Positions 1,250 to 63,559 of a stretch of 64,000 nt of DNA are shown piece after piece. The notes under the pieces were generated by a model, which was not told the DNA's origin, made no database searches, and saw only the letters and a list, made by a program, of their open reading frames with translations. Position 1 is the first letter of the stretch. Each line of letters starts with the position of its first letter. The stretch lies in assembly GCF_021155765.1 (NCBI RefSeq), contig NC_060109.1, forward strand, positions 3,063,001-3,127,000, in the 5' to 3' direction. This DNA is from Diprion similis (lineage: Eukaryota > Arthropoda > Insecta > Hymenoptera > Diprionidae). The translations under genes and the position numbers were made by a program.

Positions 1250-4200
1250 ATGGCTACGATTAACGGCATACTCAAAGCGGTGGATACATTGAAAAATTTG
1301 CATCTTCAAGATATGTCGCACGATTATACAGCAAGGTATTTGTATTACATGATTTAAAAAAATAAGTACTACTAAACGTTTTCATGCGCACTTCATCCAC
1401 GTAAAATGTTTATTTACTGTATAACCGTCTGGATATACGTCTTTTGTGTAAACGTCTATATTGATTTTGAGTCACAGGTATGCATATATGCGATTTAGAA
1501 GTATCTGAATTTAAATTAAGATTTCATCTTCCAGTGAGGTTATGTCGACCCGAATGATGGATGTCCTTATTGTTTTCAGAAAAAAAGAAAAAATCGGGTA
1601 CTGCACTACTGTGGCTGATGGCATTTGCTCTTCTGCTGCTAGACTCACTCCGAAATTTACTCAAGTTCTTAACGTCGCTATAGAGACGCTGCTAATGCTT
1701 TGCGATGACTCGGAATCTGATGTCAGAATGGTTGCCGACGAATGCTTGAATAGGATAATACGAGGGGTATGTTTAAAATCTTACAATTAGTCTCTATTCC
1801 GTACGAACATATTCAGGCGATACACAATTAAGTTGTACTTTCTTTCAACCTGAAAGCATCTTCCTTCCCAGTTGTATTGTGAAGTATTTTTAACTTACTA
1901 GAAGTCAGTGATAAAAACTAGAGAAATATCAAGTTCGCATGGTAGGTACCATGGCTAATTAAAAAATGAATTACTTCTGCCTGTATTTCATAATAGTTTT
2001 TCCTCTCGTCAGGCTATGACAGATGGCAACATAATGAAGGTACAAATTGTATTATATTGTGAAATAAAAAAAAACGGTGCTGCCCGAACGTTGAGAACAG
2101 CACTGTGGAGGTTCGCGCAGCTGGGCCACATGATCCGACCGCTCAAGGGAAAGGCTTACGTGGCAAATCTGATACCTTGTATTGTAGCTATCGCTCAGCG
2201 TTCCGAAGAATCTGTTATCGAGACACTAGCCAATTCTTTACCGTTGATTTTAAAAACTCTGGGGAACTTCACAACAGATAGCAACGTTAAGGTAAATAAA
2301 TTGGAGCAAAATACAAAATTTGTTCAATGGGACACTCTACACCGTACTTAAATCTGTATGATGTTGTTTACCCACATTTAATTTTAACAAAGTTGAAGAA
2401 AAAAAAACAAAACTCGTCACGTACAGTAAAACAATCAATGAACGCGATTGCTATGCAATTAATGATCAACGATTCAAGTACCATTCACATAACAAACAAT
2501 CTACATGGCATTGTAGCTTGTGTGTTTGAACCCATATTTTAAACACAACGGCGAGCCATTTTTTACATGAATATTTTGAATTCTCACCCAATTTTCGTGT
2601 ATACTTATCTTGTAGTAGATTAAACATCGTTTTATTTGCATGATTGGTTTCGGTATAAGGTATGAAGCCTACAGAATGTTAAATTGTCCCGATAAACATA
2701 CGACTTCTATGATAATTATAATTCTGATTGCATTAAACAGCATTTAAGTATCTCAAAGAATGTTTACGAAATTTTCAGACTCTACTCAATGCATTCTGTC
2801 AAAACATACCTTCACCACAGGCTGTATTCCGCAGAACTGCAGCTAATATGATTCTTACAACTTGTTTGAACTCTCGAAACCCTCAGGCTTTCTTATTGTA
2901 CGTTTTACAGTATATGATAGGTGAGGAAGATTTTTGTAGATCGTATTTCAGTAATATTTAAAAATATGAAACCGTAGCATTCTATGCTACATAGTCTGTA
3001 AACCTTTGAGGCCATTGAGGTAACTTTTTCTTAAAGAAATGATTGTTTATATGAGTTTAAAGTTTGTAATGTTAATGTAAAAAATACATAGAAAGAAAAC
3101 TTAGCAACCGCAATCATCCCTTCAGCCTTTGGTAGTTGAAATAACTATACTTTTTACATTCTAAACTCTGTTGCATTAGCATTACGAACTTCAACCTTGT
3201 ATTTTCATCCATTTTGTATCAAAATAAGGGTATTTTTAAATGTTAAGAAGCTTACCCTCGCAGAATCCTGAACGGAACTTCTCTTGATTAGATACTCTCG
3301 TGCCAATAACTGATGACGAAGACCGTGTTACAATGGTAATTGGAGTATTTGGTTGTCTAAGGATAATAATACCTCATATTGATGAAACATCAAATTTGAG
3401 CCAACCTGATGTCCCTCTTCATAGCTTTATACAGGTGTATGAGCTCTGTCTACACTTTGCCAAGTGGCACTCTGATCACAATGTTGTCAATGCAGCATTG
3501 GAGACCTTGGCTCAATTACTACAATTCCCTTTAAAAGAATTGGTTCCGATCTTGGTGTCCCATCAAGGGATTACACGCAGCAGGATAACAATGAATGAAA
3601 ATACTGCTCGCCTTTCTTTGGGACCGATGAGTGGTTCCAATGTAACAATATCCGGAAAAAATTCGGAATCGACATTGAATCTGTTCGATCCAGATATTCC
3701 TGAAATCAAACCGACAGTAGAGAAGTGGATTGTCGATTCGGAGAATGTCTTGCCAGTGATTCAACGACCCCATATCAAACAAGCGGACACCAATCAAATG
3801 ATGGGAAAAAAGGAAAAGTCTTTGGAGAATTACAGCAGCTTGATCATCGGATCTCTTGACAGTAAGATTATGCCGATTTATTAGACACAACTAAAATAAC
3901 GATTGTGCTGACAATGTAGCAATAAAAATGATCATAGCTTGGCGATATAATCTCATACGTGTGTATGTTTGTCATATAATGCACGTTGAAATTAGAATAT
4001 TATTTCAAGGCGAGGGAGTCGAGGAAGAAAGCGACACTGGAAGTGATATTCTGAAGGCAGAGCGTTCGACTGATCTTAGTTTGCCGAGTTTACAGTCTAA
4101 AGAAGACGAGTACTTGGATGAGGTATCGTCATCCGTAACATCTTTGCACAGAACATCATCTGGGGTTCTGTATCATGAATGTGACATAGGAACGTTTACG

Positions 4201-7200
4201 GATGCTGACGTACCCCTAAAATATTGTTGTCGATACTTGGTGTCGTCGTTTTTGCTGACTGGAATTCCTGGTCAATTGATACCTGACAAAATATTCCGAG
4301 TTAGCGTTAAATCACTTGCTCTAACTTGCATTGGTCATATTTTACGACTTTATCCAAACTTACTTTTATCGACAATGGATAAAACTCCGAATAGTAATGT
4401 AGAACAACAATACATCAGCGATATACTACTTTTTGCTAATCATTCCGATCCTCAAATAAGGGGGAATGTTGCCATGGTGATTGGATATTTTCTGAAGGCT
4501 GTTTTCCTGCAATCTGGTGATAAATACAGAAATATGGAAATATTTCTAAGGTCGACCATACCTGATAGAATAAAGGATAATATCTTGTCGTTAGAAAATC
4601 TTACAGCGCTACTATTAGAGGTGAGCAGTTTTTTCCATTTTTAATATTCTAAAATTCTAAAGACAAGGAAAAAAACTACCATAAAGTGTGTGTTATTTAT
4701 AGGGATTGAAGGACGAGTCTGCTACAACATGCAGACAAACACTTTTAGCATTAAATCTATGTCTGGCTGACTTGATAGAGTCGGCAAATAACAAGTATGC
4801 TTTACCAATTCTCAAAGCTCTGCCACTACTTGTGAAAAACCCATATTTTCTTGTTAAAATCAAGCTAGTCGAGGTTCTTAGTAATTTGCCATACACAACC
4901 GTCGAGTATGTAACAGGTGGCTCACATTTTCAAAAAAATGTTATCTCGGTAATGGTTGAGTTATTGGGGGACCAAGATCAAAGGGTACGTCACGCTACAG
5001 CTTCTGCTATTGTTCAGTAAGTAAGAAAATTTTAAGATGGATACTTTATTTCAGTGATACAAATGGTGTTAATGGATGGATTTCTAGTATTCTGCAAATA
5101 CCTCAAGGGCTTTGACAGTATATTGATATTTTCTGAAAAAGTAGACTAGTCTGATGACTATTTTTTTTTTTTTCAGGATTATTCCTTTGCTGTACTATCA
5201 ACATCCGCACGAAGACACAGTGACAAGAAAGGCATCTAAATTGACTGAAAGACATTTATCCGATATGATATCGAACCCACTAGAAAACTCGTCTTTCCAA
5301 ACAGGAAACAACTCATCGTTCAACAGTTTGCCAAAGCCCTTTGATCTATTGTGTCAACAGGATGGATATGAATATGACGAGAGAATAGAATCTGTACTAT
5401 CGAGAATAATTAGTTTGCTTACACAAAAACTGGTTATAGGTTCGTCAAAATACTTGAACTACGGGTGTTGTGAGACACTTAGTTTACTCAGTGAAACATT
5501 TTTGACGACGATTTATCCAAGAGCCTGGGATTGTTTAATTCCAAAAACAACCGTCAAGAAGACATACAAGAGGTCCAACAGTCGTGGAGATACAATAAAT
5601 GAAGCAACACCAGCTGGTGGTCCTGTTACACCCACGAGTAACGCATTGATATCTTTAACTGTGTCTTTTTTATCTTCGTCCCCGTTGAGCTTAGATCTTT
5701 CAACCCACAGACATTTGATGCTTTTGGCTGGGAACTTGGCATCAGGAATAGCTATGTGCAATTTAAAGCCAAATGAACCTCTGAACAATAGTGATTCAGA
5801 ACCTGTTAAATTGTGGGGCTTGTTCAAGGAGAAACAAATTCATCAACATTTCGAACAGCTCTTGACGCATGTCATCCGAATTCTCAATACTTTTGTGCAC
5901 GTCATTGACGAGGTACATTTACAGCATCCGAATACTAAATCTGCTCTGCCACCTCTACCAACTGCTCAGGCTCTATCACCTAAAAGGAAGCTGATATCCG
6001 ATCAGAAATCTAAGGATAAAGAGGAAAAGACATCCAGCTCAAAGTTCAGTCGAGAACAAATGGGTGTGTTCACCAATTTCCCACATTATATGAAACTGTA
6101 CGAGATTTTAAAGGCTGCTAATACAAATTACAAATCTACGCTAGAATCGGAAGCAAGTAAAATGTATCTCTCGCTGTTGAATGCGACGTTACAAGTGTTA
6201 TCCCAAATCTTGGAGATAGCGACCATACATGAAGCTGGCAGGATAGCGGAAGAAATATTACATTATTTGCAGACGACAGTTATTTTGTCTCCAACAGCAA
6301 CGGTCCAATGTGTACAACAGCTACTCAAGTGCTTGTTTGGTAGTAACTTAAGCATTCGATGGACAGATCCAGATTATCAGAAAAATTTTGAGAGAAGAAA
6401 CTTTAGAGATGATTCCAAGGGTTTTTATACACAATGCTTTCAAACACCAGCAAGACAAATGGCAGATATGATTAAAACTATTGGAAATACTTGTCGAAGT
6501 GGGAATGATCCCAGTTCTGGGTGAGTTCTTTTACAGCTTTGAGTTTGAAATTTTGTGTTAATTTGCGATAGCAACCTTACGTTCACTTCAACTTTCTCGA
6601 TATGACTCTCTTTCAAATAACAGAGTAGATCCTGATTTCATTCTCAATGGAATCTAAAGTTTAAAATTTGTCAAACAATTTTCACAAATAAATGAAAACA
6701 ACAGTTCATTCCTTTAAAATTGTTCATAAGGTCAACTAATGATTATTTATTTCTGTTCTTGTTTATTACAGCTGGATAGGTCTTGTACAAAGAAAAGGGG
6801 ATCGTAAAATGAGCTCAGTGTTCAGAAGTTTGTCACGGCATTCCGATCAGAAAGCATCGGTTGCCTCATTTATTCGTCTTTTCGAACCAATGGTCATCAA
6901 ATCATTGAAACAATACACAGTCACAAGTTGCGTATCATTACAATGCAGAGTTTTGTTGTTGTTAAGTCAACTGGTACAACTACGGGTCAATTACTGTTTG
7001 TTAGACCAGGATCAAATATTCATTGGCTTTGTTCTAAAGCAATTTGAATTTATCGAGGAAGGATACATTCAGGAAACTGAAGAATTAATACCAAAAATAT
7101 TTAATTTCCTTGTTCAGCTGTCTTATGAGAAATATCACTCTAAGGTGATAATTGGCATCCCCAAGATAATTCAGTTATGCGATGGACTCATGGCCAGTGG

Positions 7201-16600: not shown

Positions 16601-18479
16601 TTTCGCAATGCCGTACCGCCATCAAATACGCAGAAGTATCAGATCTCCGATTTTTTCACGGGTTAACACGTTGAGTTCGTATCTTAATTTATTATTTTAT
16701 ACATTGAATCGATTTATTAAAAAAATTAATTATTCCTGGAGGGAAGAAGTGTGTGTGTGTGTATGAGTAGGTTGGAAGGGGCGCGGGGGGGGGGGGGGGG
16801 GCTTTTCTCTGCAACAATGAAAATTATTAAACGAAATGATTGCGCTCATAATCAGTCTGCAGTAGCTGTGATCAGCAAAACACAAGTTGCGATCGAAAAA
16901 GGAAAAAATTTATTCCATTCCTCCAGCTGTTGATTATACGGTTCTAGACGTATTTTTTGAATTTTTAATCATACAATTAGCCAGAAAAAGGTTCTACAAA
17001 GCGACTCTAAAATGACAAAATCATGATCAATGACGAAAAAGGAAGGCTAACTTTTGTGGATTATTTCACTCGATTTTTGCGGATTCTGAAAAATACTAAG
17101 ATCAATTTATTCAGACGCTATATTGACGCTATTTGTAAATTTTTTTGGGATAAATTCCAAGTATTCAGCGTTTTTATAAGTACAAAAGGATCTTCATTAA
17201 TACATATTTTTACAGACACAATAGTTTGCATTTATTTACGTCAAAGATTACAATAATTCGTATTGTAGGTAATAAGATTGAAACAGTTATTTTACAACAT
17301 TTCTTGACAGCGAGAAAACATTTTGAGAAAAAAAAAAAAAAAAAAAAATTGAATGAGGTATGATATGTACCCTAGAGTGTTTCAAAGAAAAATAATTTTG
17401 CGATCCTTCACCATGGAACCCCATAAAAAGTTTGTGTAGGTCAACAGAAAAATTCTATCAAAAGATGGGCGTTCTACGTTATGTGGTAGATCGCGCTCAG
17501 TCGATTATTTTCTTTTTTACATTTTTTTGAATTCATGGAAGTATCATGAATAAATTTTTTTATTGCTTGCATCAATCATAAAATCAATTTACGTCACAAA
17601 GATGTCCCTCATTTGTAATATTAAGTCTCCAGTTGATATTCGAGAGTATCTAACGACTTTTTCATTATTAATTCAATCTCATGCAATAGATATAATTTAA
17701 TTAACGCCGTTTAGACTGTATCGGTAGAGCTCTGGTATCGGAGGAAACGGGTGTCATAGAGTGTGCGTCAGCTGTCAAATGAAATCTCATTATTAACAGT
17801 ATATAGTCCGTTTATTCGGTTCGGTCGCAGCCGTACTTCACAAAAAGTCATGTCATATCAACAATAAATTTGCATCTAACAACATTGATTTTTTATTTTT
17901 AACTACCGGAGTCCAGAAGTTTGTGCTGGTACTTTGCTTAGTTGCCTGTTTGCAGGCGTATCACACATTTCTAGTGTAAGTATTTAGAAGTTGAACTCAA
18001 TGTTTTGAGCGTGATACTTATGGTATTGGTTGCCTCTTTGTAGGCGTTTCACATATTTCTAGTGTAAGTATTTAGAAGTTGAACTCAATGTTTTGAGCGT
18101 GATACTTATGGTATTGGTTGCCTCTTTGTAGGCGTTTCACACATTTCTAGTGTAAGTATTTCACTCATCATGAATGTAACTGTACTGTTGTTTGATAGTT
18201 ATTATACCTCTCAATAAAATGTCTCCGTGGTGCAACAATGTGATTCAGTCCGTGTATGGTTGACTTGTTGAAAAAATCAACGATGTACTGTGACATTGGT
18301 GTTTTTACTTTGATTTTTCCCATCCCTACTTGCGCCGCCGATCTGCCAAGTCGACCTACATCTTCGGGTTTAAAGATTTTTCGTTTCACCACATCAGATA
18401 CGACGTCTTTCAGATAATATGGAACTACATTTTGTTCATAATCTTTCAGTGTTTTCACGTGAATTACGGTGGGAGCCAT
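13635..18479 (-). CDS. Pickpocket-type DEG/ENaC sodium channel
   Basis: This is an amiloride-sensitive-type cation channel subunit of the plasma membrane; insect members serve taste, touch, water or pheromone sensing. Exons in transcript order: 18208-18479, 15942-16145, 15791-15858 (tentative), 15573-15633, 15244-15525, 15000-15156, 14649-14925, 14145-14304, 13912-14015, 13635-13762. They give 570 codons. The cytoplasmic N-terminus carries the gating His-Gly motif (STIHGLNHIV). TM1 is in exon 2 (TVIFVGTALGCLVASSL). A Cys-rich ectodomain follows, with blocks such as CILECRYNFIKGRCGCYP and PVCNSTQLHC. The last exon has the TM2 filter GLFLGASIISFIEIFY with the G-A-S triplet. Intron 1 is 2 kb. 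The donor at 14999 (GTGCAC) is unusual, and the third exon rests only on phase bookkeeping. I cannot say which ppk number it corresponds to. Confidence 0.9.
16750..16801. repeat. (GT)n followed by a G17 run
   Basis: A short GT microsatellite (about 16750-16762) is followed closely by a run of 17 G on the plus strand (16785-16801), inside intron 1 of the channel gene. The transcript of that gene carries the C-run. Homopolymers this long are prone to slippage, so the exact length may be a sequencing estimate. Confidence 0.85.
17328..17348. repeat. Poly(A) tract in channel intron 1
   Basis: An uninterrupted A run of about 21 bases lies in intron 1 of the channel gene. On the transcribed strand it reads as poly(U). 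No target duplication or retrogene body is attached, so I read it as a simple homopolymer. Confidence 0.8.
17941..18165. repeat. 88-bp tandem repeat, about 2.5 copies
   Basis: The motif CTAGTGTAAG starts at 17971, 18059 and 18147, exactly 88 bp apart, and the intervening sequence is almost identical. The first unit is the most diverged (TTTGCAGGCGTATC in place of TTTGTAGGCGTTTC). The array lies in channel intron 1, about 40 bp beyond the exon 1 splice donor. On the plus strand each unit places an acceptor-like TTTGTAG and a donor-like GTAAGTA about 20 bp apart. Confidence 0.9.
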
Positions 18480-60829: not shown

Positions 60830-63559
60830 ATGAGAGGTAGCGATCGCTTGAGCCAGTTCAATGACGAAGACTACTATAGCGGTGGTCCATGTCCTTCTTG
60901 CAGACTAGCGATAAACAAGGAGACTGGAAGATTGAAGTAAACATGCACAACTACGTTGGATACATAGAAAGACTTGCGTGACGTAAAATTTTTCTGTCTT
61001 CCATATTTCCGCCAAATTTTGCTCAAGCAATTTGTGAGAATTTGATCATTTCTTGTCATGTCTTATATTAAGGTGTAAGTAATGAAAAATTGGAAGAGAA
61101 AAATTTCATCAAGATGTTTCCGTGATCGATGACGAATCGGAAGCTATCACGTCGATTCTTCGTTGATTTATTAAAGAATTATCGTCAGGCTCATTGTGCA
61201 CACGTGTTGTCTCAGGTGGTGCATGGGAGGAAACAATACCTGGCGATTGAGAGTTAGACTTATGCTAATTGTACCTGCAGTACTGCTGCCGATCACTATT
61301 ATTTACATAGCGATATGCAGGTCGAATACAATGGGGAAAATTTCAAACCATAGAACACAAGCCACTGATCAAGAAGCTCGCGAAAGCAGCGGTAGCATCA
61401 AAGGTAATTTCGATTAACACGTTGAGGGTTTATGGGGTCGATTGTCTGAATAAAAAGTTGGGTGGAAAAGGAAACCGTTTAAAAAATTTCCAGCAACGTT
61501 GTTAGAACTGATGATGGTGATTGATGACCATGAATGAAATGACAACCTTACTATGTCAGAGAAATCAATTAATTAAATAATTTTGGAAAAGTTTGAATTA
61601 TTTGGACTTTCAAAATGATCGATTTCCGGTGTTTTTGAGCCGATTCTAATTTTTTTTTTCACTCATTTTGCTCATTGGCCAGATCTCCATGAATTATTTG
61701 AAAAATATTCAAAACGTCTTACCTGAGTACGATTATATAACGTGCAAATTTAATTGTTCACGAACATCTGTTGTGCCGGGCTTTCAAACATCTTTGTTTA
61801 TTCACTGTGAAGATTACTATTTACCGTTGAAGATCTCTATGGTAAAAAATATAGATCCAAACCATTAGCATTGGTTAAAAACACCGGAGTTTAATAATTT
61901 TGAAAGTTTTAATTATAAAAACTGTCTACAAATTATTGGTGTGTTAATATTACGTTATTCAAATTTGGTTAGATTTCTTTCAATCACAAAGTAGAGATGT
62001 TGTTTAGTTCGTCTTCACCATCATTTATGTAAGTAATATTGTTGGAGATTTTATAAACGTAGTCTCATTCATGTTTAAAATCGGGTTTTCCCGCGATGCA
62101 AAGATTCGATGACAATGATGTAAAATACACGATAAGCGTAATCCATTCTTCTTTTCATTTTTCAGCCACATTCAATTACGATCCTGATCAATCGGAAATT
62201 GAGGACAGAGAATTACTTCAGGAAATAAAGACCAGCTATGTGCCACCCGATATTACGTTCAATATGGGACGACAGAAAAGAGATGTTTCCAACGGAGACG
62301 GGTGGCATAATTTCAGGGTATTCAATGGATATACATAAAAGATTATTCTAAGGACTCGAGATGTTTTGGGAAATTTTTTCAGTCACCAGTGTTACATTAT
62401 CTTAGGATTATTCGGAATATAGTGAATTGCCACGAAGTCATCGTAATCAAAATCACTTAAAAGTCTCTTGACTTCTTAGCGTGCCCCAGAAATAGTGATG
62501 AGCAAAAGCAAGACCAAGACCAAGACTCTGGCAGTCTTGGTCTTGGTCTTGGTTTTACAAGTCAGTCTTGGTCTTGGTCTTGGTCTTGCACAGTCAGTCT
62601 TGGTCTTGCGTAGAAGGTCTTGGTCTTGGTCTTGCATTTTTGCAAGACCAAGACCAAGACCAAGACCGCAAGACCAAGACGAATTTTGCTCATCACTACC
62701 CAGAAATGTCAAGAATTTATATAGATAATCAATATATCCAATCCGCTTTTTAGGTTAATAAAATAAAATCGTAATTTCAGGCGAACGGAGATGACGCAGA
62801 CATGTTGGTGGAGAAAAACACAGACATACCTGAGGAGAGGGTTGAGAATTCATTGGCTGATTATTCGGAGGATGACGCCGAGGCTTATGATAACGGAGAA
62901 AGGGACATTGAGGATTACCAGTAAGCGTTAAGTAGAGGATAAATAATTTTCGAAATAAAAATGGTTTTCAGGCCCTGATCACTGTTTAAATAGCACCTAT
63001 ACATAGACTCTGATTACCACAAGGGATGGCGAATTAATATACGGAGACACTGCGGGAAATTCGGCAAATCAAATGCCGTGGCAGACGGTTGATTCAGGTA
63101 CCAAAGACGACGGGCAGACCCAGGGCGAGTCTGACCCAGGTGAACAGGGCGGAAGGCCCTTGATTAATGAGAATACCTGGTTGGCCATGCAGGAAGATGA
63201 TGCCGGGGAAAAATCCTCGGAGTTTCATGCATTTTGGAAGGGCGAAGGTGACCTAAAGAGCATCCGCGAGGCCCAAGGTGCTTATAAGTATTATTTCATG
63301 TAAATGCAAGCGATATATATATTAATATACATGTATATATGTATATATATGTTGCGTTGTTATAAATTTATGCCTTCGAAGTATCTATTTAATATTCCTT
63401 TTAATCCGTTCATGTCTTCAATGAATATATGTCCAGAGAAAACCGTGAAACTCAGCAGATTGAGTATCCGTCTGCGCATGCGCAAGATTTGTCGGATTTT
63501 CGAGCAGCCTGACTACCTCAAGCTTCACGTGTCGAACTCGGCTTATGGAGGTTATGTAG
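60830..63559 (+). CDS. Unidentified single-pass membrane protein, 5' part
   Basis: Probable exons with consistent phase: 60830-60936, 61216-61403, 62166-62317, 62781-62920, 63024-63277, 63437-63559. The gene continues beyond the window. About 321 residues are visible. The cytoplasmic N-terminus has a CPSC motif (Cys21, Cys24). One transmembrane segment lies at about residues 49-70 (LMLIVPAVLLPITIIYIAIC), preceded by arginines (RLRVR), which suggests a type II orientation. A stem follows with a furin-type site RQKR at 134-137, then a long acidic, glycine/serine-rich stretch. The first ATG follows a TTGCAG, so an upstream non-coding exon is possible. Exons 4-6 are the least certain, because acceptor 63024 is weak. 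I do not recognise the family. A shed ligand or a Golgi enzyme stem would fit the layout, but neither is shown. Confidence 0.55.
62493..62698. mobile_element. 206-bp hAT-type MITE with GTCTTG hexamer arrays
   Basis: TAGTGATGAGCAAAA at the left end is the exact inverse of TTTTGCTCATCACTA at the right. The perfect 8-bp duplication CCCAGAAA lies outside both ends (62485-62492 and 62699-62706), the hallmark of hAT elements. The interior consists of repeated CAAGAC and GTCTTG hexamers, changing orientation at about 62527 and 62640, so it can fold into a long hairpin. It sits in an intron (62318-62780) of the unidentified membrane protein gene. The leucine/glycine-rich open frames across it are repeat artefacts. 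Confidence 0.93.

Follow-up and report, generated by a model that had tools for sequence, protein, structure and literature searches.

In maize, the transposase of Ac binds subterminal AAACGG hexamers located within 200 bp of the element ends, and Ds elements, which have these ends and the 8-bp target duplications in common with Ac, need transposase supplied in trans, as outlined in PMC3260210. In Hermes the BED domains bind AAG(T/C) repeats in the subterminal regions, with an arrangement that differs between the two ends (described in PMC10368747), and a short subterminal binding motif is mentioned for Herves as well (PMC3143072). Simple or tandem repeats inside small mobile elements are also on record. 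For instance, the foldback element Tetris of Drosophila virilis combines inverted ends with internal tandem repeats of variable number, according to PMC4079207, and small inverted-repeat elements of Lepidoptera carry (GTCY)n as “mobile microsatellites” (known to us through a citation in PMC9659126).

The element considered here occupies positions 62493–62698 of the window, that is, of the whole 64,000-nucleotide stretch of Diprion similis DNA that was analysed. Its family resembles Ac/Ds, as portrayed in PMC3260210, in short inverted repeats, 8-bp duplications, many subterminal hexamers and the existence of internal-deletion derivatives, but the hexamer is CAAGAC instead of AAACGG and is repeated head to tail, with up to six units per block and fixed spacers, so that exact hexamers cover 61% of the 206 bases of the window copy. 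With Hermes, a hAT element of the housefly, the family shares numerous subterminal repeats and a related transposase (E 1.3e-14 against the transposase with solved structures), whereas the AAG(T/C) repeats of Hermes are, in the account of PMC10368747, interspersed and those found here are tandem. In the open literature searched, neither CAAGAC combined with hAT nor sawfly combined with hAT or MITE led to a description of this family. To our knowledge, the share of the element made up by a tandem hexamer is a less common feature. Our main reading, to which we assign a probability of about 0.8, is that a low-copy hAT gave rise by internal deletion to the 206-bp feature, which is Ds-like, non-autonomous and mobilised in trans, with hexamers that most likely bind transposase and with the core lost.

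Results

Both ends, the duplication and the hexamers were read directly and checked with a script, which confirmed the architecture given in the initial annotation (15-bp inverted ends, perfect 8-bp duplication, opposed hexamers). The left terminal inverted repeat TAGTGATGAGCAAAA (62493–62507, plus strand), common to the left ends of all nine aligned copies of the family, has an exact 15-bp reverse complement, TTTTGCTCATCACTA, at the right end (62684–62698, minus strand), and perfect 8-bp copies of the target site CCCAGAAA adjoin the element on the left (62485–62492) and on the right (62699–62706). The interior holds 9 CAAGAC and 12 GTCTTG, 21 hexamers in total, and their orientation changes twice. 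Three CAAGAC (62509–62526, plus) are followed on the minus strand by GTCTTG blocks of three (62534–62551), four (62565–62588), two (62597–62608) and again three units (62617–62634, the first block of the right end), and then on the plus strand by four (62643–62666) and two CAAGAC (62669–62680). These blocks of two to four hexamers are parted by the spacers TCTGGCA, GTTTTACAAGTCA, CACAGTCA, CGTAGAAG, CATTTTTG and CG. Spacer CACAGTCA together with the block of four GTCTTG makes up a 32-bp unit, the number of which differs among copies; CGTAGAAG (62609–62616), ending with the 7 bases GTAGAAG, lies at the core-deletion junction, which has the block of two GTCTTG as its left flank; and CATTTTTG (62635–62642) is the loop spacer that separates the opposed arrays. 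Because the arrays are opposed, a single strand of the window copy folds strongly upon itself (−81 kcal/mol vs a mean of −25.3 for shuffled sequences, z −15.9), and none of 200 shuffles folded as well.

The open stretches on both sides of the insertion (62168–62317 and 62781–62918) have GT and AG edges, and for this reason the window copy probably resides in an intron, presumably extending from 62318 to 62780 on the plus strand. Elsewhere in the window, at 17941–18161, an 88-bp unit is repeated in tandem 2.5 times, with 96% matches.

The genome (269 Mb, 60 contigs) was searched at the DNA level with the element and its flanks as a query, and other loci do have the same ends. The family comprises nine dispersed copies on eight contigs, seven of them two-ended (206–677 bp) and two with the left end only. 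Apart from the window copy on contig C5 (206 bp, duplication 8/8), two ends were registered at C2:1933330 (217 bp, duplication 7/8), C1:13881015 (677 bp, 8/8), C8:18209600 (540 bp, 8/8), C14:4226208 (513 bp, 8/8; designated C14a), C4:19611737 (611 bp, flanks matching in 2/8 positions, no duplication) and C6:13212180 (617 bp, 0/8 as cut, with GTAGGAC near both ends, displaced by a few bases). The left end alone is present at C10:1446897 and at C14:5684703, where it continues into a hAT transposase gene. Thus the target duplication is complete in four of the seven two-ended copies, matches in 7 of 8 positions in one more and is absent from two; if the window copy is set aside, four of six have it (three with 8/8, one with 7/8). 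As a control, 42 swapped pairings of the flanks of these seven copies reached at most 5/8, with a mean of 2.1. None of the five duplications conforms to nnnTAnnn, the form given in PMC3517528 for the Buster group and for Mar, a hAT MITE of Drosophila willistoni.

The 15-bp inverted repeats are exact in five of the seven two-ended copies, including that of the window, while C6 and C14a have one mismatch in one end. The exact 15-mer was found 15 times in the genome against approximately 0.5 expected for equal base frequencies. Fourteen of these matches fall in the nine hexamer-bearing copies, and the remaining one, at C1:10332614, is outside the family and has no hexamer within 750 bp. When one mismatch was allowed, 48 matches were obtained vs 21 for the pattern read backwards, and much of the one-mismatch list is therefore background. 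The nine copies account for 16 of the 48 (14 exact, 2 with one mismatch). Another 16 (1 exact, 15 with one mismatch) were looked at, and each of them had two hexamers at most in the surrounding 750 bp; a partner end with three mismatches was seen only at one of them (L028), which has no hexamers. In all seven two-ended copies hexamers lie near both ends, and the transposase-bearing copy has them next to its left end; the arrays of the family have both orientations and spacers common to several copies. Searches with the long element and with the core gave no additional family copy in the genome; the AT-rich portion of the core had two weak matches, 53 to 55 bases long, at C7:1842199 and C3:4430773.

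Over its left end the window copy agrees with C1, with C2 and with C10 in 101 of 103 aligned bases in each case, and together with the perfect duplication this supports a fairly recent insertion, as had been suggested from the locus itself. Its designation as a MITE holds only in part. The copy is short, non-coding, and possesses inverted ends and a target duplication, but the usual multicopy, homogeneous form is missing, since seven two-ended copies have seven different lengths and the 206-bp structure was found once. Mar is similar to this family in being an internal-deletion derivative with 8-bp duplications and a decayed full-length relic, but it numbers 93 sequences vs nine here, and its description, as far as available to us, does not mention tandem repeats (PMC3517528). 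With nine copies the sawfly hAT family is tiny and low-copy, and is an added example of a well-known type of element.

Following the same left end and hexamers at C14:5684703, the opposite strand carries an open frame of 564 aa (positions 1678–3369 of the extracted locus L039). This frame matches the hAT dimerisation domain PF05699 with E 6.1e-22. The classification of the window copy as a non-autonomous hAT with an 8-bp duplication is hence borne out by a hAT transposase in the same family. Target duplications of 8 bp are also made outside hAT, for instance by P, so that another superfamily, or just a palindrome arisen by chance within a hexamer microsatellite, may be thought of. Both appear extremely improbable in view of nine copies, five target duplications and the hAT transposase in the family, and the chance palindrome is rejected, as far as sequence can show, on account of the ends and spacers that the nine copies have in common.

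A shorter frame upstream of the transposase (L039:4562–4873) resembles zf-BED only weakly (E 0.41; 11.1 bits vs the Pfam cut-off of 20.6). Between the two frames, L039:3627–4302 forms a palindrome (about 676 bp, with 79% complementarity); a foldback or miniature element may be nested there. Family sequence in this long copy ends near L039:5225, and the right end is absent there; the right-end part of the family was found in other copies only. Beyond this point the truncated copy is adjoined (L039:5223–9492, or C14:5688922–5693191) by gag- and protease-like frames (DUF1759 and aspartyl protease, both below the Pfam cut-off), which resemble those of a BEL/Pao-type retroelement, and by a 797-aa open frame for which neither Pfam nor, at E 0.01, the solved structures gave a match. 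In the genome searches no copy combined a transposase with both ends, and thus no complete parent was found. The transposase query gave 45 genome matches, and only the query itself (C14:5685377–5687068) belongs to this family. The next-best relatives, C2:109748 (47%) and C2:3352541 (42%), have neither these ends nor the hexamer arrays, which implies that the hexamers are not tied to the transposase protein beyond this one family. All further matches were weaker than these two. The 47% relative (examined within C2:107000–113000) has a long open frame of 729 aa without a stop and may be a transposase-derived host gene; the 42% relative is contained in C2:3351000–3356500.

Two segments of L039, one reaching from the end to position 1303 and the other covering 5155–5225, are matched by five copies (C1, C4, C8, C10 and C14a). 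For C1 the identity is 98% over 259 bases on one side of the gap and 94% over 71 bases on the other. The five have one common junction and a deletion of about 3.85 kb, and the matches on both sides of this gap identify the five longer copies as Ds-like internal-deletion derivatives of the hAT. The deletion arose once and was carried later to several places. C6 is a separate derivative: the five-copy junction is absent from it, and its match to the long element, 462 bp at 90%, is on the left side.

In the window copy the match to L039 is limited to the left end and hexamers. The whole core is missing from this copy and from C2, where the left and right hexamer arrays are joined directly, at junctions that differ between the two. 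In C2 the left array runs into the 19-bp spacer CTGCTCACATGCGATCTTG, and C4, which has kept its core, has the same CTGCTCACATGCGATCTTG at the right end; this indicates that the core of C2 was lost between two GTCTTG arrays. The motif GTAGAAG, with which the junction spacer of the window copy ends, also occurs in the core of all seven core-bearing copies; it may be a filler copied during repair, or a coincidence.

These junctions bear on the question whether the 206-bp form was ever mobile as such. It may be a deletion made in place: a longer copy of approximately 500–680 bp would have been inserted in the window, and its core would have been lost there between hexamer arrays. The 206-bp structure and the 217-bp structure of C2 were each found once and have different junctions, both located at hexamer arrays, while the junction of the longer form is, by contrast, common to five copies. 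On the other hand, the ends and the duplication of the window copy are perfect, and the short form may have moved in its present state. We consider the chances of the two courses of events to be about even.

The hexamer number, tabulated for each two-ended copy as the initial annotation envisaged, turned out to be variable. GTCTTG occurs from 12 to 24 times in the seven copies, partly with differences of whole 32-bp units; the number of blocks differs as well, and so does the number of hexamers per block (1 to 6). The loop spacer CATTTTTG is present in four copies, inverted (CAAAAATG, with CAAAATG) in C4 and C6, and absent from C14a. Variable hexamer numbers and an inverted loop spacer could fit a rearranging hairpin. 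The idea that the element carries its own expandable hairpin stands insofar as the opposed hexamers can fold, the loop is inverted in C4 and C6 and the copy number varies. The interior is not a plain microsatellite: hexamer blocks are parted there by short spacers.

The same variability is what one would expect if the element were a MITE carrying a microsatellite, in which the hexamers ride along as passengers, lengthen through slippage and contribute nothing to transposition. Hitchhiking microsatellites are known in MITEs, including the (GTCY)n repeats of Lepidoptera mentioned above, which this element resembles as a small inverted-repeat element with a simple repeat (as cited in PMC9659126). 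However, hexamers that lie near both ends, in both orientations and with common spacers are placed as expected of binding sites. This counter-argument is positional, and slippage and binding are not mutually exclusive; on balance, we find the passenger role unlikely.

It had also been supposed that the element could distribute and expand the hexamer genome-wide. This was not supported. The search for (CAAGAC)x3 gave 67 matches in 13 places, 52 of them inside the nine family copies and 15 in four other places (C6:10692962, C10:9804464, C10:19219118–19219351 and C13:2575908). These four are one-strand microsatellite arrays, the one at C10:19219118–19219351 being CAAGAC-rich, and none has TAGTGATGAGC within two mismatches. 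With so few arrays, all one-stranded and without ends, there is no sign of the element seeding arrays at the (CAAGAC)x3 threshold. In this respect the family differs from Tetris, which it resembles in inverted ends and in internal tandem repeats of variable number: the repeats of Tetris, of about 220 bp, seeded satellite arrays (PMC4079207), whereas a hexamer is repeated here and no seeding was seen at this threshold.

Discussion

Based on these data one can assume that the parent of the family was a hAT element with a transposase gene, 15-bp terminal inverted repeats and, next to these, CAAGAC/GTCTTG arrays of either orientation. A transposase acting in trans would have excised a family copy and inserted it at the window site, generating the 8-bp duplication. 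In this process the hexamers would serve as subterminal transposase-binding sites, while the terminal repeats would mark the cut; the position and orientation of the hexamers make CAAGAC most likely to be such a binding site. The transposase gene, and then the whole core, may have been lost via gap repair or recombination between repeats, leaving almost nothing but the ends.

A bolder version of our main reading is that the transposase-binding sites of this hAT became a self-rearranging array, with changes by 6 or 32 bp, flips of the loop and homology that repeatedly deletes the core; miniature forms would then be a product of the ends themselves. We offer it tentatively and regard it as more doubtful than not.

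Taken as a whole, the family represents a natural series from a transposase-bearing copy through forms of 513–677 bp to those of 206 and 217 bp. This series shows the reduction of a hAT element to its ends and leaves existing knowledge of hAT unchanged. If the hexamers are indeed binding sites, the copies with differing hexamer numbers could show how many sites the transposase needs.
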